DNA from: Klebsiella sp. BIGb0407
Lineage (GTDB): Bacteria > Pseudomonadota > Gammaproteobacteria > Enterobacterales > Enterobacteriaceae
Assembly: GCF_024807845.1 (NCBI RefSeq)
Contig: NZ_JANUEQ010000001.1
Location: 372,001-436,000, forward strand
Length of the DNA stretch: 64,000 nucleotides
Direction: 5' to 3'
Below, piece by piece: positions 1,284 to 13,940 of the stretch. Positions within the stretch are counted from its first letter, which is position 1. Every line of letters starts with the position of its first letter. Below the pieces are notes generated by a model, which saw only the letters and a list, made by a program, of their open reading frames with translations, made no database searches and was not told the origin of the DNA. The position numbers were made by a program, and so were the translations under genes.

Positions 1284-1847
1284 TTAAAGATAACTTACGG
1301 TATATTCTGCAACGGCAGTAATTTTACCTGCAGTACCGTTATCACCCATGGAATAGTAACGAACGCCAAAATCATAAGACGCTGATGTTTCGCCATTTTT
1401 TAATACTAACCCTTGAACAGGAGTGACACCTTTCAAGTTGACAGCGCTGCTGGCATTGTCTTGTGTGTCTTTTAATAATTGAATACCAAAGCCAGTTGCT
1501 GCATCAGCACCTGTACGTGTATTACCCAATACACCTGAAGCGCTATCAACATTATAACCCAGGAAGTTGGTTGTAATATTAGTGTCAGCCTGTGGAGCCT
1601 GGCAATTTGTAATTGAAACAGTGAACGGAGTGAATCCGGCAGTCTTGGTTGCTTCCAGAGTTTCACCGAAATCTTTTATTGATACAGTAGGAAGTAATAC
1701 TACGGAATTTGTTTGTCCGTTAATATTGATAGAACAGGTCTGGGAAGTAACTTCACCTTCAAAAGTTACAGTAGGGGCTGCCAGGGCTGAAGCAGGAAGT
1801 ACCATAATAGCGGCCAGTGTAGCTAATTTGTTTAATGTAATGCTCAT
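1284..1847 (-). CDS. Major fimbrial subunit (type 1 pilin family)
   Basis: A 187-residue pilin. The signal peptide (residues 1-23) ends at ALAA, and the mature protein begins APTVTFEGEVTSQTC. The two cysteines expected for the pilin disulfide are at about residue 38 (SQTCSI) and in ITNCQAP. The C-terminal strand EYTVSYL matches the penultimate-tyrosine beta-zipper motif recognised by chaperones. It is the first gene of the minus-strand operon, so probably the major structural subunit. It is followed by a strong hairpin and then the chaperone gene. Confidence 0.92.
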   Translation of the reverse strand: MSITLNKLATLAAIMVLPASALAAPTVTFEGEVTSQTCSININGQTNSVVLLPTVSIKDFGETLEATKTAGFTPFTVSITNCQAPQADTNITTNFLGYNVDSASGVLGNTRTGADAATGFGIQLLKDTQDNASSAVNLKGVTPVQGLVLKNGETSASYDFGVRYYSMGDNGTAGKITAVAEYTVSYL

Positions 1848-2631
1848 GACTTAATCCTATTGAAAACAATGTAATGATGATATGTTTAAAGGCAATTATA
1901 TCCACATAGAAAGAAGGGTTGATAAGCAAGGTGATAATGTAACATCATATTAAAATCTGTTATTACGCACCGTATTTATTACCTGGGAAACTTCCTACTA
2001 GCTGATGGCGAGAATATATTATTAATTAATTAAATAAGCTAATTATTTATTTTTACGAAAATAAGGATAACAATAAAGCAACAATTTATGATGTATATTT
2101 ACACCCCTAAAAACCTGTTCATAATTACTATGATTATTATAGATAAAATATTTTAAGGGGGTGGAGGTCTGAAGGATACCGGCTGTTACAATATATCAAT
2201 ATTTGTTTTTTTCTCCTTGTCTCTAAATATTTCTGGATGTTTTAATTATCAGCTTAAGTCAAGTTTCGTGTGTATATAACAATAAGGTATAAGTGATCGT
2301 ATTAAAAAAAGGCCTGATTCAGTAAAAGTAAATAAATTGATCGCGGACATTTTAATTAAGATGAAAATTTTTGTTTGCAGGGTGCAAAAATAATGATGTC
2401 ACAAGATTATATTTAATATTAAAAGAGGTTTTTCTTCTCTTGTGAAAAAAATTGCGAGTGGTTTGCAAATTATCTGATTACTTCTGGATATATCATTTAG
2501 AAAAAAGGAGAGGGTATATTCAGATAAAGAACCTGACACAGATTTCAGCCAGGTCATTTATCTGCAACACTCTTAAAGTGAATGTTGGTTTTTCTCAGAA
2601 GGTGGTTTGCGTATTGAAATTTAAGCGTTAT
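1848..2631. promoter_or_regulatory. AT-rich control region upstream of the fimbrial operon
   Basis: About 780 bases without a credible gene, much richer in A and T than the flanks. It should hold the pilin promoter. Two GATC (Dam) sites with the same flanks (TGATCG), at 2295-2298 and 2339-2342, sit 44 bases apart. Dam/Lrp switches of pap type use paired GATC sites, but at a different spacing, so this is only suggestive. I found no inverted-repeat pair of fimS type. A plus-strand reading frame at 2452-2778 has no family features and runs over the end of the gene at 2632. Confidence 0.4.
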
Positions 2632-3756
2632 TTAGACTTCAAGGAACCATTCCTCCCGGTGAAGAATTTTCCCATTAACTTGAATCTCAATATATTGAAT
2701 ACCTTTATAATACTGGCGAGTGGTGATTTTTTTAACGACATGTTTTTTATCAATACGCATGACACCTTTTGCCGGTAATGAAAAGGTACGCAACTTAAAG
2801 ACCTTAGGAGAAGTAGTGTTATTTGCCTTCATAAAATGAATAACATAATCCAGTACAATATTTTGTGGCTGGTCACTGACTGAACGGAGCTGAGTAGTAA
2901 ATTCCAGACTTTCATTCAGTCTGATGTTTCGGCTTTTAACAGTAAACTCATCAAGCTCTACTTCTGCTCCAAACTGAACGCCAATCAGAGACAGTGCATC
3001 CGGATGACCGGCTTTGATAAGTGTTCTTAACGCCTGCTTAATGATCCAGTCGATGTTTTTCCGTTCGCTATCGGTTGCTTGCTGCTGCCAGCGAGTTAAT
3101 AACGCAATGACATACTCAGGATTATCTTTGGTAATATCATTCAGATGATTGGCAACGCTTTTTCTGACGTAGAGTTCAGTATCGAATTTTAACGCCTCTA
3201 AAATTTCGCGAGTTGCGGCAGGATCCTGAATAAAAGCAGGTAGCTGTTCTCCCCAGGGAACCCGGGGACGAGTCCCTTCGGATGCCCATCGGCGAATATC
3301 CACATTCTCGCTGCAGGCACAATTAAGCAGGAAAGCCATGGTTTGCTGTGGGTATCGTTTGATAAAAGGGCGGACAGCCCATTCAGAAGTAAAATGCTGA
3401 GTAACAATCGCTAAGGCATCCAATGAAATATCAGGATAATCAATCCCGTAGGTCTGGATAAACTCAGCAACAGGCCAGACGGAAAATCCTTTAAGTTGAT
3501 TATCCTTAAGCACTGATATCAGAATATTTAATGCTTCAGGGTAGTCCTCCGGCAGCTCAGCGGCCAGGGTATCACGTATCAGGTGCACTCTGGCTTTCAT
3601 TTCTTTGTCTGCCAGCAGTGGCCCGATTGCCAGAAATGCCGCGGCATTAAATGGCGGAAAATAGCGAGTGACTGAATCAGCCATTTGTTGCAACAGGGTA
3701 CCGTTAAACGCGAGTTTAAAGGCACTGTCATTATTGTTATCCGTCAGACTGCTCAT
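2632..3756 (-). CDS. AlkC-type DNA glycosylase (HEAT-repeat plus Ig-like C-terminus)
   Basis: 374 residues. Residues about 1-265 are alpha-helical HEAT-like repeats of the AlkC/AlkD superfamily, which excises alkylated bases such as 3-methyladenine without flipping them out. The segment RRWASEGTRPRVPW is a hallmark of the AlkC branch. The C-terminal 100 residues (LNESLEFTTQL ... EIQVNGKILHREEWFLEV) look like the Ig-like beta domain that separates AlkC from the shorter AlkD. The gene stands alone, between the fimbrial control region and a MarR regulator, and there is no ada/alkA neighbour. The symbol is left empty because enteric copies are usually unnamed. Confidence 0.85.
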   Translation of the reverse strand: MSSLTDNNNDSAFKLAFNGTLLQQMADSVTRYFPPFNAAAFLAIGPLLADKEMKARVHLIRDTLAAELPEDYPEALNILISVLKDNQLKGFSVWPVAEFIQTYGIDYPDISLDALAIVTQHFTSEWAVRPFIKRYPQQTMAFLLNCACSENVDIRRWASEGTRPRVPWGEQLPAFIQDPAATREILEALKFDTELYVRKSVANHLNDITKDNPEYVIALLTRWQQQATDSERKNIDWIIKQALRTLIKAGHPDALSLIGVQFGAEVELDEFTVKSRNIRLNESLEFTTQLRSVSDQPQNIVLDYVIHFMKANNTTSPKVFKLRTFSLPAKGVMRIDKKHVVKKITTRQYYKGIQYIEIQVNGKILHREEWFLEV

Positions 3757-3805: not shown

Positions 3806-4252
3806 TTACTGGTGTAACTGGCGGGCCATCTTTGATGTCCGGTCCAGGGCGGCAGCAAACTCTGCCTGTTGTTCTGGGGTAAATTGCGAGAGAAAAAGCT
3901 CTGCGACAGTGGCCTGGTAGATAGCCCACATTTGCTTACGCAAAGCCTTTCCTTTGTCCGTGATTGCGACAAGTGCAGCCCGGCCATCGTCAGCTAAACG
4001 CGTGCGGCTGACCAGCCCTTCTTTTTCCAGCCTGTCGACCAGGCGAGTAAGGTTATAGCGTTCAATCACCAGCACATCCGCGAGTTCATACATTCTGCGC
4101 GCTTCTTCCGGGTGGCTTTCCAGCCCCCATAAGGTGTCATACCAGGCATAAGTGGGTAATCCAGCCTTCGCCAGACGCTGTTCAACCTCCCTGATCATCA
4201 GCCGGTGAGATCGGACATAAGAAAACCAGAGATCGGGATTATCTGAAGCCAT
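3806..4252 (-). CDS. MarR-family transcriptional regulator
   Basis: 148 residues with a winged helix-turn-helix (about residues 40-105: YELADVLVIERYNLTRLVDRLEKEGLVSR, then the wing at LADDGRAALVAITDKG). A good ribosome site (AAGGA) precedes the ATG at 4252. It is divergent from the E1/E2-like operon across 167 bases that contain two oppositely oriented copies of ATTGCA-2-TGCAAT. This is the layout of an autoregulator controlling its divergent neighbour. The likely targets are itself and the E1 gene; the ligand is unknown, perhaps a 2-oxo acid or aromatic compound. Confidence 0.9.
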   Translation of the reverse strand: MASDNPDLWFSYVRSHRLMIREVEQRLAKAGLPTYAWYDTLWGLESHPEEARRMYELADVLVIERYNLTRLVDRLEKEGLVSRTRLADDGRAALVAITDKGKALRKQMWAIYQATVAELFLSQFTPEQQAEFAAALDRTSKMARQLHQ

Positions 4253-4274: not shown

Positions 4275-4336
4275 ATTGCATTTGCAATTCAATTCTACAC
4301 TGATAAGATGCCCGTCGCTATTATTGCAAATGCAAT
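4275..4336. promoter_or_regulatory. Paired palindromic operators between marR-like gene and E1 gene
   Basis: ATTGCATTTGCAAT at 4275-4288 and its exact reverse complement ATTGCAAATGCAAT at 4323-4336. Each is a 6-2-6 dyad, and the centres are 48 bases apart in the divergent intergenic region. The first lies close to the regulator gene and the second on the E1 side. MarR dimers bind dyads of this size, so these are the predicted operators for the regulator at 3806-4252. Confidence 0.75.
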
Positions 4337-4419: not shown

Positions 4420-7071
4420 ATGAACCCATTTGATGTCGATGTGCAGGAAACTCAAGAATGGCTGACCGCGATGGAGGCCGTAGATACGGCTGAAGGTCGT
4501 CCCCGTACGCATTACTTGATTGAAAAGTTAGTGGAAAGAGATGTCATCCGTTATGGCGATTTGCATAGCCGGGTAACAACACCTTATCTCAACAGTATTA
4601 CTCGCGAACGTCAGCCGGTTTATCCCGGCAACCTTGAGCTGGAACAACGGTTGAGCGCTTATATTCGCTGGAATGCCATGGTCATGGTTCTTCGGGCAGG
4701 CAAACACTCTAATGTTGGCGGGCATATCGCCACTTATGCTTCGGCTGCGGTGTTGTACGATGTGGGTTTTAACCATTTCTTCCGGGGACGCACCGACAGT
4801 TTTGATGGCGATATGGTTTATTTTCAGGGCCATTCAGCGCCTGGCATCTATGGCCGCGCCTACCTTGAAGGACGTATCAGTGAAGAGCAGTTAGATAATT
4901 TCCGTCGTGAAGCTGACCGGGAAGGACTCTCTTCTTATCCCCATCCGCGTCTGATGCCGGATTTCTGGCAGTTTCCAACCGTATCTATGGGGCTGGGACC
5001 ACTGACTGCTGCTTATCAGGCGCGCTTTATGCGCTATCTGGAATACCGTGATTTAAAAACGCCGCAGGGCCGTAAAGTCTGGGCATTCTTAGGTGATGGT
5101 GAGATGGATCAGCCTGAGTCCCTGGCGGCTATTGCGCTAGGGGGGCGTGAGAAACTCGATAACCTGATTTTTGTCGTTAACTGTAATCTGCAAAGGCTCG
5201 ATGGCCCGGTCCGTGGTAACAGCAAAATAGTACAGGAACTGGAAGCCACTTTCCGCGCCGCAGGCTGGCAAGTGCTGAAAGTGATGTGGGGAAGCGGCTG
5301 GGATGCGCTGCTGGAGCGGGATCAGAGTGGTCTGTTGCGCCAGAGAATGATGGAGTGTGTCGATGGGGATTATCAGACCTTTAAATCACAGAGTGGAGCC
5401 TATGTTCGCGAGCATTTCTTCGGTAAATACCCGGAGCTATTAGCGCTCGTTGCCGATATGACGGATGATGAAATCTGGGCCTTAACCCGTGGCGGCCATG
5501 ATGTGGAAAAAGTCTATGCGGCTTATGCCAAAGCAAGTAGTCATACTGGCCAGCCCACCGTTATTCTGGCTAAAACCGTCAAAGGGTTTGGTATGGGAGA
5601 GGCGGGCGAAGGGCTGAATATTAACCATCAGCTTAAAAAAATGAGTACCGATGCGGTTCGCGCATTTCGCGACCGCTTTAATCTTCCCGTTACGGATGAG
5701 CAACTGGAAGAGATGCCCTATTTGAAACCGGAGCCGGGCAGTGAAGAGGCGCGCTATTTTGCCGAACGCAGAAGTCAAATGGGAGGATTTGTGCCTGCAA
5801 GGCTGGCGAAATCGGAAACGTTACCCGTTCCACCGTTAAGCACTTTTGAGGTGCTATTAAAAGATAGCGGGGAGCGTAGCGCCTCTACGACCATGGCTTT
5901 TGTGCGCATCCTGGGTATTTTGCTCAAAGACCCTCAGTTAGCAAAACGCGTAATCCCTATTGTACCCGACGAGTCCCGTACTTTTGGGATGGAAAGTCTG
6001 TTCCGCCAGATTGGTATCCACTCTTACCTCGGTCAGCTTTATACGCCTCAGGATGCAGGGCAGCTTAGTTACTATAAAGAAGCGAAAGAAGGGCAAATCT
6101 TGCAAGAGGGGATTAATGAGTCCGGGGCTATCTCTTCCTGGATAGCCGCGGGTACCTCGTACAGCAATCATAGTCTGGCCACCATTCCATTCTATATTTT
6201 TTACTCGATGTTTGGCCTGCAGCGGGTAGGGGATCTGGCATGGGCCGCTGCGGATGCCCGGACACGTGGTTTCCTGCTAGGGGCAACATCGGGCAGAACG
6301 ACGCTAATGGGCGAAGGGCTGCAACATGATGATGGCCATAGCCATGTGCTGTCATCGGTGATCCCAACCTGTATTTCTTACGATCCGACATTCCCTTATG
6401 AGCTGGTAACCATTATTCAGAATGGCCTGCAACGGATGTATGTCGAACAGCAGGATATCTATTACTACATCACTTTGCTGAATGAAAACTACCCTCAACC
6501 GGCGATGCCTGAAGGCGCTGAGGACGGTATTCTGAAAGGAATGTATCTGTTTAAGCCAGCAACCGATCGTCCGGCGAAAGTGCAACTGATGGGCAGCGGC
6601 GCCATTTTGCGCGAAGTGATTGCCGCGGCGCAGTTGCTGATGGACGACTTTACTATTGCCAGCGATATCTGGAGTGCCACCAGTCTGACGGAGTTACGCC
6701 GTGAAGGCATGCAGACTGAGCGCTGGAATATGTTACATCCGGAACAGCCGAGTCGTATCAGCTACGTCGCACAATCCCTTGAAAATCATGACGGCCCCCT
6801 GGTCGTTGCCACGGATTATATGAAAATTGTCGCCGATCAGATTCGGCCTTATGTGCATAACCGCCGTTTTGTGGCCTTGGGTACGGATGGTTTCGGACGT
6901 TCGGATACCCGGGAATCATTACGTCGTTGTTTTGAGGTCGACCGACACTTTATTGTTATCGCCGCTCTTAAAGCCCTGGCAGACGATGGCGTGATAGCGG
7001 CCAGTCTGGTGAGCGATGCTTTGCAGCGCTATGGCATAAGTCATGATAAACCGGCTCCCACAGACCTGTAA
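4420..7071 (+). CDS. AceE-like homodimeric 2-oxoacid (pyruvate) dehydrogenase E1
   Basis: 883 residues, the size of E. coli AceE (about 887). Thiamine-diphosphate E1 features are intact. These are GGHIATYASAAVLYDVGFNHFF and QGHSAPGIYGRAYLEGR (active-site histidines), the ThDP/Mg motif LGDGEMDQ ... NCNLQRLDGPVRGN, the inner-loop histidine in GLNINHQLKKM, and the glutamate in EGINESGAISSW. A clear ribosome site (GGAG) precedes the ATG. It is very probably a paralogue of the housekeeping aceE, because it is controlled by a divergent MarR gene, lacks pdhR/lpd, and is paired with an abnormal E2. Possible substrates are pyruvate or 2-oxobutyrate; the sequence does not decide. Confidence 0.9.
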   Translation: MNPFDVDVQETQEWLTAMEAVDTAEGRPRTHYLIEKLVERDVIRYGDLHSRVTTPYLNSITRERQPVYPGNLELEQRLSAYIRWNAMVMVLRAGKHSNVGGHIATYASAAVLYDVGFNHFFRGRTDSFDGDMVYFQGHSAPGIYGRAYLEGRISEEQLDNFRREADREGLSSYPHPRLMPDFWQFPTVSMGLGPLTAAYQARFMRYLEYRDLKTPQGRKVWAFLGDGEMDQPESLAAIALGGREKLDNLIFVVNCNLQRLDGPVRGNSKIVQELEATFRAAGWQVLKVMWGSGWDALLERDQSGLLRQRMMECVDGDYQTFKSQSGAYVREHFFGKYPELLALVADMTDDEIWALTRGGHDVEKVYAAYAKASSHTGQPTVILAKTVKGFGMGEAGEGLNINHQLKKMSTDAVRAFRDRFNLPVTDEQLEEMPYLKPEPGSEEARYFAERRSQMGGFVPARLAKSETLPVPPLSTFEVLLKDSGERSASTTMAFVRILGILLKDPQLAKRVIPIVPDESRTFGMESLFRQIGIHSYLGQLYTPQDAGQLSYYKEAKEGQILQEGINESGAISSWIAAGTSYSNHSLATIPFYIFYSMFGLQRVGDLAWAAADARTRGFLLGATSGRTTLMGEGLQHDDGHSHVLSSVIPTCISYDPTFPYELVTIIQNGLQRMYVEQQDIYYYITLLNENYPQPAMPEGAEDGILKGMYLFKPATDRPAKVQLMGSGAILREVIAAAQLLMDDFTIASDIWSATSLTELRREGMQTERWNMLHPEQPSRISYVAQSLENHDGPLVVATDYMKIVADQIRPYVHNRRFVALGTDGFGRSDTRESLRRCFEVDRHFIVIAALKALADDGVIAASLVSDALQRYGISHDKPAPTDL

Positions 7072-7118
7072 GCGACTTACAGCAAACAAGATGCCCGTTA
7101 ACGCGAACAGGAAAAATC

Positions 7119-8039
7119 ATGCCAGAAACCAGACACACCGCTTCAGCTGAAAGCATCGTCAGCAGAACCCATTATGCCAGCCCGCTGGTATACCGTTTAG
7201 CCCGCGAAAGAAAAGTGGACTTACAGCAACTGACCGGGACCGCACGTCAGGGACGTATCTCGCAGGATGATATTATGCGGTTCCTGCAGTCAGCGCCTGA
7301 TACCCGGCAAACCAGACCAGAGACGGCAGGTCAGATAGCCGAGCATTTCGACTTCAGCCCGTTCGGTGCAACAGCGCGCAAGTCTTTAACACCGATACAA
7401 AAAATAGCGGCCAGCCGCCTGAGCCGTAATGGGTTGACGATCCCGCATGTGACTTATCACGATGAGGCTGATATCACAGACCTTGAAACACTGCGAGTAT
7501 CATGGAACTCAGAGAATTCCGTCCCAGAGTTCAACATTACTCAACAGGCATTTCTGCTAAAAGCGAGCGCAGCTGCGCTCATTGCTTTTCCCGAATTGAA
7601 CAGCTCACTGGATATGGATAACGGTGAACTGATCCTGAAAAAGTACCTGAATATTGGCTTTACGGTTGCAACGCCGGAAGGCGATATTATTCCGGTGATA
7701 CGCGATGTAGCGTCTAAAAGAGTGGCCCAGCTTGCGCAGGAAATGGCAATACTGAATCACAAGGCAGAAGACGGAACGCTAAGTAACGCGGATATCAGTG
7801 GGGGTTGCTTTACGCTTTATTCATTAGAAGGGATTGGTGGTCTGGCGTTTACTCCAATCATTAATGGATCAGAAGTCGCTATTCTGGGGATATCCGCCTC
7901 CCGCTTAACAGAGAAGAACCGAATGATATTACCCCTGTCACTTAGCTACGATAATCGAGTGATAAGTCATACTACCGCGGCGCGTTTTATGGCCCATCTG
8001 AAAAATTTACTGAACGATATTAGGCTGTTACTACTGTAG
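7119..8039 (+). CDS. Truncated AceF-like E2 protein lacking lipoyl domain and catalytic residues
   Basis: 306 residues, against about 630 for AceF. Residues about 19-57 (SPLVYRLARERKVDL ... ISQDDIMRFL) form a peripheral-subunit-binding domain. Residues about 85-306 align with the acyltransferase core (IPHVTYHDEADITDLE, GGCFTLYSLEGIGG, AILGISASR). There is no N-terminal lipoyl domain. The catalytic motif DHRxxDG reads DNRVISH: histidine is Asn279 and aspartate is Ser283. The frame is intact and the start has a good ribosome site (AGGAAA), 47 bases after the E1 gene. Probably a pseudoenzyme that tethers the E1 paralogue to an E2 core; this role is inference. Confidence 0.85.
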   Translation: MPETRHTASAESIVSRTHYASPLVYRLARERKVDLQQLTGTARQGRISQDDIMRFLQSAPDTRQTRPETAGQIAEHFDFSPFGATARKSLTPIQKIAASRLSRNGLTIPHVTYHDEADITDLETLRVSWNSENSVPEFNITQQAFLLKASAAALIAFPELNSSLDMDNGELILKKYLNIGFTVATPEGDIIPVIRDVASKRVAQLAQEMAILNHKAEDGTLSNADISGGCFTLYSLEGIGGLAFTPIINGSEVAILGISASRLTEKNRMILPLSLSYDNRVISHTTAARFMAHLKNLLNDIRLLLL

Positions 8040-8045
8040 TTTTAA

Positions 8046-8077
8046 TCCTGCACCGGGCGATTACGTTCGGTGCAGGA
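8046..8077 (+). terminator. Hairpin after the E1/E2-like operon
   Basis: TCCTGCACCG and CGGTGCAGGA form a 10-bp stem with a 12-base loop, just after the stop at 8039 and between convergent genes. The T-rich tail is weak, so termination may be inefficient or may work in both directions. Confidence 0.6.
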
Positions 8078-9727: not shown

Positions 9728-10699
9728 TTATAAATCAATGGTTAAGTTATCTGAATGGCTGCGCGAGCAGCACAGGGCAATATACTGTGCATCAGCACAT
9801 TTTTCTGTCTCTGACTGCACCGTATCCCGATGATCCACCAGGCCTGCGATAACCGGTGTCAGGCAGGCACCACAAATCCCCATTTCGCAGGATAGCGGCA
9901 CATCAACGCCATTTTCCTGAAGAACCCGGGCAATGGTTTTATCACTTGGAATTGACCATTTTTCCCCTGAGGAAGAGAGTGTCACCGTAAATGTATGGTC
10001 TTCTCCCGCTTTGGCGGTCACGGGCTGCGCTTGAAATGCTTCGCTGTGGATCTGTGCTTCACTCCAGCCTTTATCAACGGCTGCCTGACGTCCGGCGCTC
10101 ATAAACCCTTCAGGGCCACAGAGATAAATATGATGACCTGCATGGACGTCACCGAGCATTTTGTTCAGCGTATGGCGCGGACTCTTGCCTTCGCTGGAGC
10201 TGTGGATAATGACGCTGCCTTCGGGGAGATTCTGCATTACTTCAGCAATAAAAGCGCCATTTTCGCGGTTTTTAACCGAATAATGCAGTACAAAGGGGAT
10301 CTTTTCCGCTGCCAGTTGCAGCGCCATGGCATATAAAGGCGTAATGCCAATCCCGGCCGCCAGTAATGTGACCTGAGCGGCGGGCTGCAGTACAAACAGG
10401 TTGCGCGGTGATGAGACCGATAATCTCTGACCCGGACGCAAGGCCTCGTGGATATAGCGTGAACCGCCCCGGGAATGCGTTTCTCGTGCGATACAAATCA
10501 GATAACTGGTCATCTGGTGAGGGTTACCTGTCAGTGAATATTGACGAATAATCCCGCCGGGCAGATGAACATCAATATGCGCTCCGGGTTGCCAGGCCGG
10601 CAGTGATTCATCCCGGTCGGGTACCAGCCGGATAGCAAGATTATTATCGCCCTGACGCCACATCCCATCGACAATAACGTTCAGCATATTACTCATCAT
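9728..10699 (-). CDS. hpxE: HpxE: ferredoxin-type reductase of the hypoxanthine/xanthine oxygenase
   Basis: 323 residues, phthalate-dioxygenase-reductase type. An FMN/FAD-binding barrel carries RQYSLTGNP. The NAD domain has GIGITPLYAMA and YLCGPEGFM. A C-terminal plant-type 2Fe-2S domain has LSCEMGICGACLTPV (Cx4Cx2C) and the fourth cysteine in IALCCSR. It passes electrons from NAD(P)H to the Rieske oxygenase HpxD, 11 bases upstream in the same operon. In Klebsiella, HpxDE oxidises hypoxanthine and xanthine to urate in place of a molybdenum enzyme. The hpxR/hpxO neighbourhood supports this over vanillate demethylase. Confidence 0.88.
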   Translation of the reverse strand: MMSNMLNVIVDGMWRQGDNNLAIRLVPDRDESLPAWQPGAHIDVHLPGGIIRQYSLTGNPHQMTSYLICIARETHSRGGSRYIHEALRPGQRLSVSSPRNLFVLQPAAQVTLLAAGIGITPLYAMALQLAAEKIPFVLHYSVKNRENGAFIAEVMQNLPEGSVIIHSSSEGKSPRHTLNKMLGDVHAGHHIYLCGPEGFMSAGRQAAVDKGWSEAQIHSEAFQAQPVTAKAGEDHTFTVTLSSSGEKWSIPSDKTIARVLQENGVDVPLSCEMGICGACLTPVIAGLVDHRDTVQSETEKCADAQYIALCCSRSHSDNLTIDL

Positions 10700-10710
10700 T
10701 TATTCTCACC

Positions 10711-11751
10711 TCACACCAGGAAAAAGTCGCCAAAGCCCATTTTTTTCAGACCGCGTCGATAAGCAATAGAGCTACGATCGGCGGGAATATGCGCCTCAAG
10801 CGTCAGATCAAGGGGTAATCTCTCTGGGCGCTGGGTCTCTACCATGAGCCTGTCTTCTTCAAAGACTCGCAGGTTAAAGGCATAAACGTCCTCAACCGGA
10901 ATATGCAGGTCAAAATTACGGGCAATAGGGGCAAACATTTTCGTGATGCGGGACGAAACCGGCGAGGCTGCATTCATGATAACCAGCCGGTCTTCACCGG
11001 GGAAATGAATGGTCAGGGTCGCAGTAAAGGGCAGGTGCATCTCAAAGTGACGCAGCCACTGAAACCCTTCAGGTTCATTAGACTGTACACCCGCCGGATA
11101 GTTACTCACTGAGCTCCAGTAGTCGACAGCAAAACCAAAGGGAGTCTCTTGCGGATTGTAGGCCGGAACCACCTGATTATCCGGATCGGCAAAGGTTTCA
11201 GTATGGATCCAGGCGAAGTGGGCGACATCGAGAAAACCCTCAACCTGACGCCCGGCGAACCCGTTCACCTCAAATCCAGGACAGGTTAACTGTTGAAAAC
11301 CGTCATCGTGCCAGTTGGGCATGACGGGCAGAGGCACAGGTACCTCCGGATCGAACGCCAGACAAGTCCAGACCAGACCATAACGCTCCTCAACAGCATA
11401 GTTAGTCAGATGCAGTTTTGCCGGTATAGGTTGATTCGGGCTGGAGGGAATACGGTTGCACTGGCCGTTCTCGCCAAAACGCAGACCGTGATAGGGACAG
11501 ATAATGCCTTCCTCATCATTAAAACCCAGCGTCAGCGGTACGCCGCGGTGCGGACAGACATCGCGAGCGACCACCACCTGGCCCTTAATACGATAAATAA
11601 CCAGTTGTTCATCCAGCAATACCGCCTTTACAGGCGCCTTGTCGATATCACAGCTGCGTGCGACGGGGTGCCAGCATTTTGCCAGACGTAGCCAGTCATC
11701 TGGCTCAAAGGTGCAATGGGCGGGGGGAGTCGGTTGTTGTCTGTTCATCAT
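10711..11751 (-). CDS. hpxD: HpxD: Rieske non-haem iron oxygenase for hypoxanthine/xanthine
   Basis: About 346 residues. The Rieske cluster motif is CPHRG (C66, H68) and CPYHG (C85, H88). The mononuclear iron site DVAHFAWIH has the usual D-x2-H-x4-H form. The fold matches ring-hydroxylating oxygenase alpha subunits such as VanA. Start choice is uncertain: GTG at 11763 or ATG at 11751 or 11748, all in frame. It is divergent from the LysR gene hpxR, the usual arrangement. With HpxE it should convert hypoxanthine to urate. No sigma-54 element with correct spacing faces this gene, unlike the other hpx operons here. Confidence 0.87.
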   Translation of the reverse strand: MMNRQQPTPPAHCTFEPDDWLRLAKCWHPVARSCDIDKAPVKAVLLDEQLVIYRIKGQVVVARDVCPHRGVPLTLGFNDEEGIICPYHGLRFGENGQCNRIPSSPNQPIPAKLHLTNYAVEERYGLVWTCLAFDPEVPVPLPVMPNWHDDGFQQLTCPGFEVNGFAGRQVEGFLDVAHFAWIHTETFADPDNQVVPAYNPQETPFGFAVDYWSSVSNYPAGVQSNEPEGFQWLRHFEMHLPFTATLTIHFPGEDRLVIMNAASPVSSRITKMFAPIARNFDLHIPVEDVYAFNLRVFEEDRLMVETQRPERLPLDLTLEAHIPADRSSIAYRRGLKKMGFGDFFLV

Positions 11752-11871
11752 CTTTCTGCTCACATCAAGAAATCTGTTTAATTGTTGTGGATTTATTGTT
11801 GCCAGATTAGAGTGTTGACATCCATAAGCATTAATTCACTAACCTGTTGCAAAAAAGAGTACAGGAGAGAT

Positions 11872-12807
11872 ATGAGTCCATTTTCGCGTTTTGCGCTCTA
11901 TTTTTGCGAAGTTGCCCGCAGCGGAAGTTTACGGCGGGCAGCAGAAAAGCTGCATATTTCCGCCTCGGCGATTAACCGTCAGATTCTGCAGGCCGAAGAG
12001 GCTTTTGGAACCCCGCTATTTGAGCGGTTACCGGAAGGGTTGAGTATGACGACGGCGGGTGAGCTGTTGTACGACAATCTGTTGCGCTGGCAGAAGGAAT
12101 TTCGCCTGACTCAACAAAAGTTTGATGAGCTGCAGGGTCTTAAACGTGGAGTAGTCAGTATCGGTATGGTACAGGCGCTGGCGGAAGGCAGTTTCGCGGC
12201 AGCACTGGCCGATATCATCAGTGCCTGGGACTGGCTTGAACTGATGTTTCAGGTTTCTGACAGCCGTACTGTCAGTGAAAAAGTGCGCAGTGCCGATCTT
12301 GATTTTGGCCTGATCCTTGACCCGGAGGGGCAGACAGGGCTGAGTGTTCTGGCCTTCGTCGAGTTAGAAATGGGCGTGGTGCTTTCCCCGAGTCATCCAC
12401 AGGCGGGTGCAGGGACGCTTTCATTGGGTGACCTCAGTGAGGAGCGCCATATTCTTCCCGGCGCGCCGCTGATTGTGCATGACAGGGTGGCAATGTTATA
12501 CCGCCACTATGATTTCTCCCCGACCAACACCATTAGCTGTAACGACATTCGTCTGATTAAATCGCTGATCCTCAAAGGGGGCGGCGTGACTATTCTGAGC
12601 AAGCTCGATGTACTCGATGAGGTGAAAAAAGGTCAGTTAGCCTTTGTTCCGTTGCGCAGCAAATTACTGCGACCCCTGACTCTGGCGCTGTGCACGGCAC
12701 CATCGCGCCAGCTTTCCCGCCCGGCGCAAATGGTGATTCAGAGACTGACTATGGTGATGGAAGAAATGAAGGCTGACGACGGTATTCAGCCTAATGGGCC
12801 ACCTTGA
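11872..12807 (+). CDS. hpxR: HpxR: LysR-type regulator of the hpx genes
   Basis: 311 residues from the ATG at 11872, which has an AGGAGAG ribosome site. The in-frame upstream start at 11782 lacks one. The N-terminal helix-turn-helix (ARSGSLRRAAEKLHISASAINRQI) and the effector domain fit the LysR family. It is divergent from hpxDE and its last 22 bases overlap the end of the convergent hpxO. In Klebsiella the equivalent gene activates hpxDE in response to hypoxanthine; here that is inferred from position. Confidence 0.85.
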   Translation: MSPFSRFALYFCEVARSGSLRRAAEKLHISASAINRQILQAEEAFGTPLFERLPEGLSMTTAGELLYDNLLRWQKEFRLTQQKFDELQGLKRGVVSIGMVQALAEGSFAAALADIISAWDWLELMFQVSDSRTVSEKVRSADLDFGLILDPEGQTGLSVLAFVELEMGVVLSPSHPQAGAGTLSLGDLSEERHILPGAPLIVHDRVAMLYRHYDFSPTNTISCNDIRLIKSLILKGGGVTILSKLDVLDEVKKGQLAFVPLRSKLLRPLTLALCTAPSRQLSRPAQMVIQRLTMVMEEMKADDGIQPNGPP

Positions 12808-13940
12808 ATTGTTTCGCATAACCCGTTGATAATGCGCTCCCCAGTCTCTTCACTCAGTTCCTGGTACCAGGCCTGGGTCAGCATCATGTCTTTTCCATGG
12901 GTAATATCACAGCGCTTACGTGCCTTAAGTATCAGATCGCGTACGCGTTCACAGCGCTGTTCTTCATACTGGCGCAGAGCAGAAAGAATATCGTTATTCT
13001 CACGGAAAATTGTGCCCAGAACCACGGCATCCTCCATAGCGGCACAGCCACCCTGACCAATGTCCGGAGTCGTACTGTGTCCCGCGTCACCGAGTAGTGC
13101 CACTTTTCCATGAATCAGTTTATCCAGGGGGTCAATATCGTGGATCTCAACCCGATTGGTGGTCTGCGGATCCAGCGTCGCTATCAGTTTTTGGACAGGC
13201 GCAGCCCAGCCTGCAAAGTAGCGGGTCAGATCCGCGCGTAGCGTGGCGCTGTCTTCGGGTAACCCGGCAGGCAGGGGAACATCAAAAAAGAAATAGAAAT
13301 AGCCGTTTGCCACAGGCATCAAGGATACGCGTTTACCTTCCCCAACGAAGGTAGTCCACTGGTCGGCCGGAGCGATACTTTCATCAATCTTTACCAGTCC
13401 GTTCCAGTTCACATAACCCGCGTAGCGACGCTCCGGGGTATACCCCAGAACATAGGGCCGCAGTACTGAACGGCTACCATCCGCAGCGATAAGAAAGTCA
13501 CCGCTCGCGGTCGAGCCATCGGTAAAACTGACGGTGACGCCATCTGCATGCTCTTCTACCTGGGTCACACGCTTATTAAATGTGACATTGTCACGCCCCC
13601 AAAAATGGAGCATCTCGCGTTGCAATTCGGTCCGGGAAACCGGGCAAGGCCGGCCTTGAGTCCGTTCAACGAGAGGGGCAAGACTAAAGCGTGTTAAGGT
13701 TTCACCGAGGCGGTGCTCTTTATAAGCCAGATAACGCATCTGGCCGCCCCAGGTTTCGATTATCTCGCCCATACCCAGACTGTTCATGCATTTCACGCCG
13801 TTAGGCCAGATAGAAATGGCGGCTCCGACAGGTTTTATTTCTTTCACTGCCTCAAAGACTTCACAGGTAATACCCGCATTTTTCAGAGCGACCGCAGCAC
13901 TCAGACCACCAATTCCTGCACCTATCACTAATGCTTTCAT
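12786..13940 (-). CDS. hpxO: HpxO: FAD-dependent urate hydroxylase
   Basis: 384 residues, the known HpxO length. It has the N-terminal FAD motif GAGIGGLSAAVALKNAG and the second flavin motif GDAGHSTTPDIGQGG of aromatic-type monooxygenases. It converts urate to 5-hydroxyisourate with NADH and O2, replacing cofactor-free uricase. The 5' side has an AAGGGG ribosome site, a sigma-54 element at 13974-13989 and an NtrC-like dyad at 14043-14057, so control by nitrogen limitation is likely. Confidence 0.93.
   Translation of the reverse strand: MKALVIGAGIGGLSAAVALKNAGITCEVFEAVKEIKPVGAAISIWPNGVKCMNSLGMGEIIETWGGQMRYLAYKEHRLGETLTRFSLAPLVERTQGRPCPVSRTELQREMLHFWGRDNVTFNKRVTQVEEHADGVTVSFTDGSTASGDFLIAADGSRSVLRPYVLGYTPERRYAGYVNWNGLVKIDESIAPADQWTTFVGEGKRVSLMPVANGYFYFFFDVPLPAGLPEDSATLRADLTRYFAGWAAPVQKLIATLDPQTTNRVEIHDIDPLDKLIHGKVALLGDAGHSTTPDIGQGGCAAMEDAVVLGTIFRENNDILSALRQYEEQRCERVRDLILKARKRCDITHGKDMMLTQAWYQELSEETGERIINGLCETIQGGPLG

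Follow-up and report, generated by a model that had tools for sequence, protein, structure and literature searches.

Gene content of the locus

The window analysed here, a stretch of 64,000 nucleotides from Klebsiella sp. BIGb0407, encodes a paralogue of the homodimeric, AceE-type E1 subunit of pyruvate dehydrogenase. The gene of a MarR-family regulator is divergent from that of E1, with a 167-bp gap between them, and 47 bp separate the E1 stop codon from the start of a gene for an E2-like protein that is probably a pseudoenzyme. The features of the locus are as follows:

3806..4252, minus strand: MarR-family regulator, 148 aa (Pfam MarR_2 and MarR, above cut-off)
4275..4288, no strand assigned: operator copy 1, ATTGCATTTGCAAT, putative MarR site (exact palindrome)
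4323..4336, no strand assigned: operator copy 2, ATTGCAAATGCAAT, putative MarR site (48 bp from copy 1)
4420..7071, plus strand: AceE-type homodimeric E1 paralogue, 883 aa (TIGR00759, 1418.5 bits; cut-off 859.9)
7109..7112, plus strand: AGGA, possible ribosome-binding site (read from the sequence)
7119..8039, plus strand: E2-like protein, predicted pseudoenzyme, 306 aa, ATG start (open reading frame list, Pfam, alignments)
7173..7274, plus strand: peripheral subunit-binding domain (PSBD), residues 19-52 (PF02817, 39.8 bits; cut-off 23.7)
7371..8036, plus strand: E2 catalytic-domain fold, residues 85-306 (PF00198, 196.2 bits; cut-off 23)
7818..7820, plus strand: Tyr234 codon, at the Ser558 position (alignment to 1dpd/1eaa; E2 alignment)
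7953..7955, plus strand: Asn279 codon, at the position of catalytic His610 (E2 alignment; 1dpd/1eaa)
7965..7970, plus strand: Ser283 (Asn/Asp614 position) and His284 (Gly position) (E2 alignment; 1dpd/1eaa)
8046..8077, plus strand: strong hairpin behind the E2-like gene, possible transcript end (-26 kcal/mol, z -5.6)

The MarR, E1 and E2-like genes have G+C contents of 49-54%, against 44% in the flanking genes on both sides. In one genus mate, G287, the flanking gene o374 is present (84%), and MarR, E1 and the E2-like gene are all missing from the 19 kb around it; MarR was not found in the three other genomes of the genus. The G+C contrast and the pattern in G287 are consistent with gain or loss of the locus as a block. 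Plasmid transfer was considered and rejected, as near-identical DNA in plasmid records comprises only hpx genes or small open reading frames.

Elsewhere in the window, positions 9728-13940 hold hpx-type purine genes, with an HpxO above its NCBIfam cut-off (600.8 against 500), and matching DNA in a Klebsiella record is annotated as hpxO, hpxD and hpxR. Two frames at 503-1847 resemble a fimbrial chaperone and a fimbrial subunit, and behind them lies an AT-rich stretch (32-33% G+C at 1501-3000).

MarR-E1 loci in other genomes

A search with E1 pointed to Burkholderia arboris, whose protein is 77% identical; the next plasmid record stands at 63%. Searches with MarR gave five matches in 398 genomes of the phylum and six in 392 genomes of the family, the window's own included in each case. 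They also gave 52 matches in 329 genomes of a further family, f23, of which 43 were examined, and 36 in 199 genomes of the genus g185, of which 30 were examined. The 81 loci compared below comprise the window, the B. arboris locus (L096), nine loci from the phylum and family searches and 70 from f23 and g185. They were reached by MarR similarity, not by E1, and they are not independent, many of them sharing genera; f23 includes loci that match the B. arboris neighbours at 94-100% identity. A full AceE-type E1 adjoins MarR in 61 of the 81 loci and in three lineages (4 of 6 in the window's family, 28 of 44 in f23 with B. arboris included, 29 of 31 in g185), a partial E1 in eight, and none in 12. 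The MarR orthologues that adjoin E1 in other genera are 57-74% identical to that of the window. We found no description of the locus in the open-access literature searched.

The window has the divergent MarR with RTTGCANNTGCAAY palindromes by which we recognize a MarR-operated E1 locus. An exact operator of the ATTGCAWWTGCAAT type stands ahead of MarR, in one or more copies, in 79 of the 81 loci. The gap next to MarR contains the exact RTTGCANNTGCAAY palindrome in 79 and two exact copies of it in 49, with operator spacing across loci rounded to 10 bp. An upstream operator copy was scored in 65 of the 81, and further copies precede GST or E1-C-terminal-domain (E1-CTD) genes in the loci inspected for them. 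Because window matches with up to two mismatches are at chance level (3 against 2.16), the operator evidence consists of the exact pair and its conservation. The divergent gene and the two perfect palindromes in its gap, kept across loci, support the MarR switch that the first-pass annotation had proposed, and from them we infer MarR binding to the palindromes and induction of E1. The gap between MarR and E1 yielded no consensus promoter.

A wider MarR regulon in the same genome was considered and rejected. Of its three exact sites, two are those described here and the third, on another contig (C3), lies inside a coding frame, and the number of one-mismatch sites is 21, against 14 for a reversed control. 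Twelve one-mismatch loci were read, ten of which lie inside a frame and two (L120 and L130) outside frames. Near 36050 on C3 (L119) there are frames that resemble those of type III secretion export proteins, and the third exact site falls within one of them.

Several kinds of gene recur beside MarR. An E1-CTD gene occurs in 50 of the 81 loci, a GST gene in 44 (only 4 of the 31 in g185), an SMR efflux protein in 20 (none of the 31 in g185) and an RND pump in 18, every one of which belongs to f23, and DXS is present in full in one locus and in part in two; on examples, Pfam confirmed the identities of E1-CTD (Transketolase_C_1), DXS, GST and SMR. Together with the MarR switch, the presence of GST, SMR, RND and, once, DXS fits a response to a chemical that acts on ThDP or pyruvate enzymes. 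The window locus has no GST, SMR or E1-CTD gene, so that this chemical-stress reading is borrowed from its relatives, and the scarcity of GST and absence of SMR in g185 count against it.

The E1-CTD protein, of about 335 aa and like E1 residues 649-881 at 28-40% identity, is another non-catalytic pyruvate dehydrogenase piece. Its gene lies beyond MarR as seen from E1 and in many cases follows a copy of the operator (L114, 8339-9346; L096, about 4667-5329; L111, 8913-10082; and 47 further loci). At L109 (12954-14819), a full DXS paralogue begins at the E1 stop, the slot that the E2-like gene holds in the window; DXS is broken in L110 and L108. An identical-type E1 remnant (residues 3-121, 57%) lies beside MarR in L113, L240, L241, L243, L244 and L245, and L116 (8534-9091) encodes an in-frame reduced E1 with residues 5-127 and 820-881 in a 185-aa frame. 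Plasmid pBB2 of Cupriavidus necator N-1 (L145, 3968-6646) has an aceE 62% identical to the window E1; it adjoins a LysR gene, and aceF and lpd are missing from the stretch examined. Clustering of neighbours across lineages gives several further components, some of which are shadow frames.

The E1 paralogue

The window E1 is 58% identical to the AceE of its own genome and 71-79% identical to the E1s of other MarR loci. Its TIGR00759 score and the catalytic residues, conserved in all 61 members of the clade, assign it to AceE. An MdeB-like E1 was rejected, given a score below the cut-off of TIGR03186 (AKGDH_not_PDH; 1243.8 against 1408.3), with the proviso that this model has no power here: four clade members score 1210-1278 and E. 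coli AceE itself 1233.6.

According to the first-pass annotation, E1 keeps every ThDP and active-site motif. This holds for the ThDP and active-site residues that we checked, and for His407 and the docking residues D7, D9 and E15, all kept in 61 of 61 intact clade E1s. It does not hold for every position that is otherwise invariant: F110Y, E235Q, G626A and N634M are fixed in all 61 and occur in none of 59 other AceEs, mostly from Methylococcales, and S109T is found in 55 of the 61. We take the checked and changed residues to have pocket or docking roles in AceE. Purifying selection is indicated by E1 dN/dS values of 0.058 and 0.084 (two pairs); one MarR pair gave 0.117 and one E1-CTD pair 0.161.

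Sixty of the 61 loci with a full E1 have no E2-like gene within the stretch examined, which, if anything, favours docking of these E1s with the E2 core of the housekeeping complex. Such docking, also put forward in the first-pass annotation, is plausible, and the window E1 can be expected to work with AceF.

The E2-like protein

In the E2-like protein Pfam recognizes only E3_binding (residues 19-52) and 2-oxoacid_dh (85-306), with no match to a lipoyl domain. There is no room for such a domain, because the stop-to-stop frame has 329 codons and the E1 stop lies 47 bp upstream of the start. These results agree with the initial description of an AceF-like protein that has a subunit-binding domain and lacks a lipoyl one. 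Measured against E2p, it has the PSBD and the core, both above the Pfam cut-offs, and lacks the lipoyl domain, at least one of which belongs to an E2p. It scores 294 bits with the equivalog model TIGR01348 (cut-off 552.1) and 273.4 with NF008814 (cut-off 722), and lies under every NCBIfam E2 cut-off.

The best solved relatives are the E2p cores of E. coli and A. vinelandii, and PDB 6h60 (protein X, or E3BP) also matches (E 3.6e-21). An AlphaFold2 model computed from 18 sequences has a mean pLDDT of 75, with low confidence at residues 1-17, 60-75, 101-108 and 238-249, and its nearest folds in Foldseek are E2 cores (4n72, TM by target 0.73, with a large rmsd of 12.7). The C-terminus (DIRLLLL) aligns without insertion, a feature that only permits core integration. 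Two near-invariant positions of the PSBD are changed, Arg (99 of 99) to Tyr25 and Gly to Lys32; these changes may weaken docking and count against the reading that we favour below.

The genome has three PF00198 genes, namely the E2-like gene, a 626-aa frame (AceF) and a 403-aa frame that we take to be SucB. The E2-like protein is 42.7% identical to its own AceF and about 51% (raw) to the nearest E2, from G383, which disfavours a recent duplicate of the genome's own AceF. Its placement in the tree is without support, in no starred group, and its end branch, at 3.08 changes per column, is far longer than the median of 0.11.

Catalytic residues were compared in an E2 alignment of 100 other rows, 99 of them with a residue at the motif. 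The alignment is rich in Enterobacteriaceae and Methylococcales and holds at least three genes twice (L133/L137, L134/L138 and L135/L139). In the E2-like protein the motif DHRxxDG reads D278-N279-R-V-I-S283-H284, which confirms the ruined acyltransferase motif first noted, with Asn279, Ser283 and His284 in columns that are H, D and G, respectively, in 99 of 99 other rows. Further replacements came to light beyond that motif. Tyr234 occupies the Ser558 position (S in 98 and T in 1 of 99 other rows), Ala184 the Asp508 position (D in 97 of 99), and Glu the Gly position at 237, and a seven-column gap corresponds to VWNGKEF of E. coli AceF. Alignment to A. vinelandii E2p (1dpd, 1eaa) places residues 234, 279 and 283 at Ser558, His610 and Asn614, residues that the PDB entries 1dpb, 1dpc and 1dpd assign in their titles to the catalytic mechanism. 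In place of the Ser558, His610 and Asn or Asp614 of E2p, the protein has Tyr234, Asn279 and Ser283, so that all three catalytic residues are replaced. It keeps 59 of the 80 columns that are at least 97% conserved in the E2 alignment, and the 21 lost columns take in all three catalytic positions as well as those of Ala184, Glu237 and His284. A yeast E2 His-to-Asn mutant reportedly stayed active, so that loss of the His alone would be no proof of death; on the alignments as a whole we conclude that the E2-like protein is probably a pseudoenzyme (pseudo-E2).

Distribution and integrity of the E2-like gene

No orthologue of the E2-like gene was found in 295 genomes of the family (best non-self match E 6.1e-76, 48%), among four genomes of the genus, in 274 genomes of the class (best non-self match 53%, in a 499-aa frame) or in 99 relatives with E values of 1e-74 or lower, where only the own genome matched; these samples overlap. 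E. coli genomes match the locus in the E1 part only, plasmid records (631) match the E2-like gene at less than 60% identity, and a search of genome contigs by short peptide patterns returned 58 E2 relatives with identities of at most 46%. Among the 81 MarR loci, only that of the window has the gene. A conserved E1/pseudo-E2 operon is rejected on this count, and the first-pass expectation of an E1, pseudo-E2 and MarR unit conserved across Enterobacterales fails with it: linkage of MarR to E1 recurs (61 of 81 loci), linkage of the E2-like gene to them does not. That annotation would have taken homologues with DHRxxDG and a lipoyl domain as the sign of a local decaying copy. The homologues do keep the motif, in 99 of 99 rows, and in the genomes sampled the best other relatives keep lipoyl-sized frames, as in the 499-aa frame.

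The gene itself is intact. Its frame is open, AGGA precedes the ATG, and behind the stop lies a 14-bp hairpin (z -5.6; 0 of 200 shuffles as good), which has no proper U-run and is missing from the terminator scan listing. When a related E2 gene was mutated neutrally to 51% identity, 0 of 200 runs stayed stop-free, which implies that selection kept the E2-like frame for most of its history. The intact, well-initiated frame described in the first-pass annotation agrees with this and with the AGGA, and there is no simple decay over the whole history. In the same simulation, the stop-free runs numbered 19 of 200 when identity was 80% and 51 of 200 when it was 90%, and, given these figures, function could have been lost recently.

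These data bear most directly on the possibility that the protein is a passenger, the remnant of a second E2 that was once active, was acquired with E1 or moved behind it, has since shed its lipoyl domain and its active site, and is now near-useless although its frame is still whole. The confinement of the gene to one locus in 81 and to one genome in the overlapping samples is in line with this, as are the very long branch and the instability of the slot behind E1, where DXS is full in L109 and broken in L110 and L108 and E1 itself is cut in 8 of the 81 loci. Against it stand the intact frame, AGGA and strong downstream hairpin, a codon usage above that of shuffled sequence (0.398 against 0.304), and the simulation, which excludes neutrality for most of the history, if not for its last part. 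We regard the passenger as a serious contender that nevertheless falls well short of an even chance.

Interpretation

The reading that we favour, tentatively and at somewhat less than even confidence when taken as a whole, is a MarR-controlled spare E1 module that docks on AceF and Lpd, plus a scaffold-like pseudo-E2. In outline we infer induction, a chemical signal, docking and any function of the pseudo-E2. MarR would repress a spare, pocket-modified pyruvate dehydrogenase E1 until a chemical signal lifts the repression. The N-terminus of the induced E1 would then bind the subunit-binding domains of the housekeeping AceF, whose lipoyl arms, together with Lpd, the E1 would use, and pyruvate oxidation could go on despite inhibition of or damage to the normal E1 (and, in certain hosts, DXS as well). 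The GST and efflux proteins of the fuller loci would remove the chemical agent. The pseudo-E2 is probably on the E1 transcript, and is predicted to perform no acetyl transfer and to carry no lipoate. If useful, it is most likely structural: its core could join AceF cores or form a trimer of its own, and its subunit-binding domain could provide the induced E1 with additional places to dock, comparable to those of mitochondrial protein X for E3.

The pseudo-E2 is best read as a local addition to the MarR-E1 locus, whether it serves as a scaffold in the manner of PDHX, acts as a brake or has of late become a useless passenger. Its presence in one genome only counts against the scaffold; the scaffold and passenger readings stand close together, and the brake ranks lower. 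A scaffold role would make the pseudo-E2 a bacterial pseudo-subunit of pyruvate dehydrogenase with an origin separate from that of protein X. A MarR-controlled spare AceE whose pocket changes are fixed, and which recurs near GST, efflux and once DXS genes, points to a natural agent against ThDP or pyruvate enzymes. Methyl acetylphosphonate derived from dehydrophos is reported, in a passage of PMC9239090, to inhibit multiple pyruvate-using enzymes, including pyruvate dehydrogenase. A broader proposal, which we consider speculative and rather unlikely, is that MarR, GST, efflux and a pocket-altered AceE make up an undescribed and widespread target replacement that sustains pyruvate oxidation when a chemical attacks ThDP or pyruvate enzymes and recruits non-catalytic pieces (E1-CTD and the pseudo-E2) to rebuild or shield the complex, the pseudo-E2 being a lipoyl-less bacterial counterpart of protein X.

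As a brake or sink, the PSBD of the pseudo-E2 would hold E1, and perhaps Lpd, off AceF, leaving E1 to idle or to decarboxylate or carboligate without forming acetyl-CoA. The PSBD retains most conserved residues, the lipoyl arm and catalysis are missing, and an E1 without a lipoyl-bearing E2 can only decarboxylate or ligate, all of which speaks for such a role. It would, however, be wasteful to induce E1 and its own inhibitor from one transcript, all 61 members of the E1 clade retain His407 and the residues for docking, which serve together with an E2 that bears lipoyl groups, and no other locus has such a partner. We consider the brake distinctly unlikely.

Very improbable, in our estimate, is a part in resistance to an inhibitor aimed at E2, with the pseudo-E2 serving as a decoy or as an insensitive substitute. 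An inhibitor of this kind exists among natural products, as the dynaplanins appear, from the account in part of PMC9239090, to act on the E2 catalytic domain. The neighbours in related loci (GST, SMR, RND) resemble chemical defence, and another non-catalytic piece, the E1-CTD protein, is found in 50 of the 81 loci. According to the same part of that paper, though, the activity of dynaplanins is largely confined to some of the actinomycetes; the drug may fail to bind a core whose channel holds a Tyr, and large amounts of a decoy would be required. Least credible of all is an acyltransferase of altered chemistry served in trans by the AceF lipoyl arms, for which OdhA, a lipoyl-less E2 domain working with AceF lipoyl groups, offers a precedent (PMC10415282, in part), given that the Ser558, His610 and Asn/Asp614 positions are all changed, with Tyr at Ser558, that the active-site loop is shortened, and that OdhA itself has its catalytic His316 (same source).

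Comparison with known systems

The MarR-E1 part of the window resembles the B. arboris locus (L096 on NZ_CP101525), which has a divergent MarR (71%), an E1 (77%) and paired operators; unlike the window, it has no E2-like gene and has an E1-CTD gene, a GST gene and an RND operon nearby. A second AceE-like gene is also known from P. fluorescens SBW25, where aceE2 (PFLU3193) was a match in a transposon screen mentioned in PMC5210274; it is likened here by that description only.

The housekeeping AceF of Enterobacteriaceae shares the PSBD and core with the pseudo-E2 (42.7% identity within this genome), but the own AceF is a 626-aa protein with lipoyl domains and the motif DHRVIDG, all absent from the pseudo-E2. 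Protein X (E3BP) of eukaryotes is, like the pseudo-E2, derived from E2, with a PSBD and a core incompetent for acetyl-CoA, as set out in a section of PMC5322387. According to the same section, E3BP has a lipoyl domain and binds E3, whereas the pseudo-E2 lacks a lipoyl domain, is bacterial and is encoded behind an E1 gene. The two share an E2-like core that is incompetent, by prediction in the pseudo-E2, and differ in the lipoyl domain of their own; they are likely of independent origin. The E2o domain of actinobacterial OdhA/KGD, like the pseudo-E2, is an E2 core without a lipoyl domain, and that of OdhA depends on AceF lipoyl groups (PMC10415282, in part). OdhA keeps the catalytic His and is fused to E1o, whereas the pseudo-E2 is a separate protein with a presumably dead active site, its catalytic residues having been lost, which sets it apart from active lipoyl-less transferases of the OdhA type. 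The pseudo-E2 combines a feature of OdhA, the absence of a lipoyl domain, with one of E3BP, the incompetent core.
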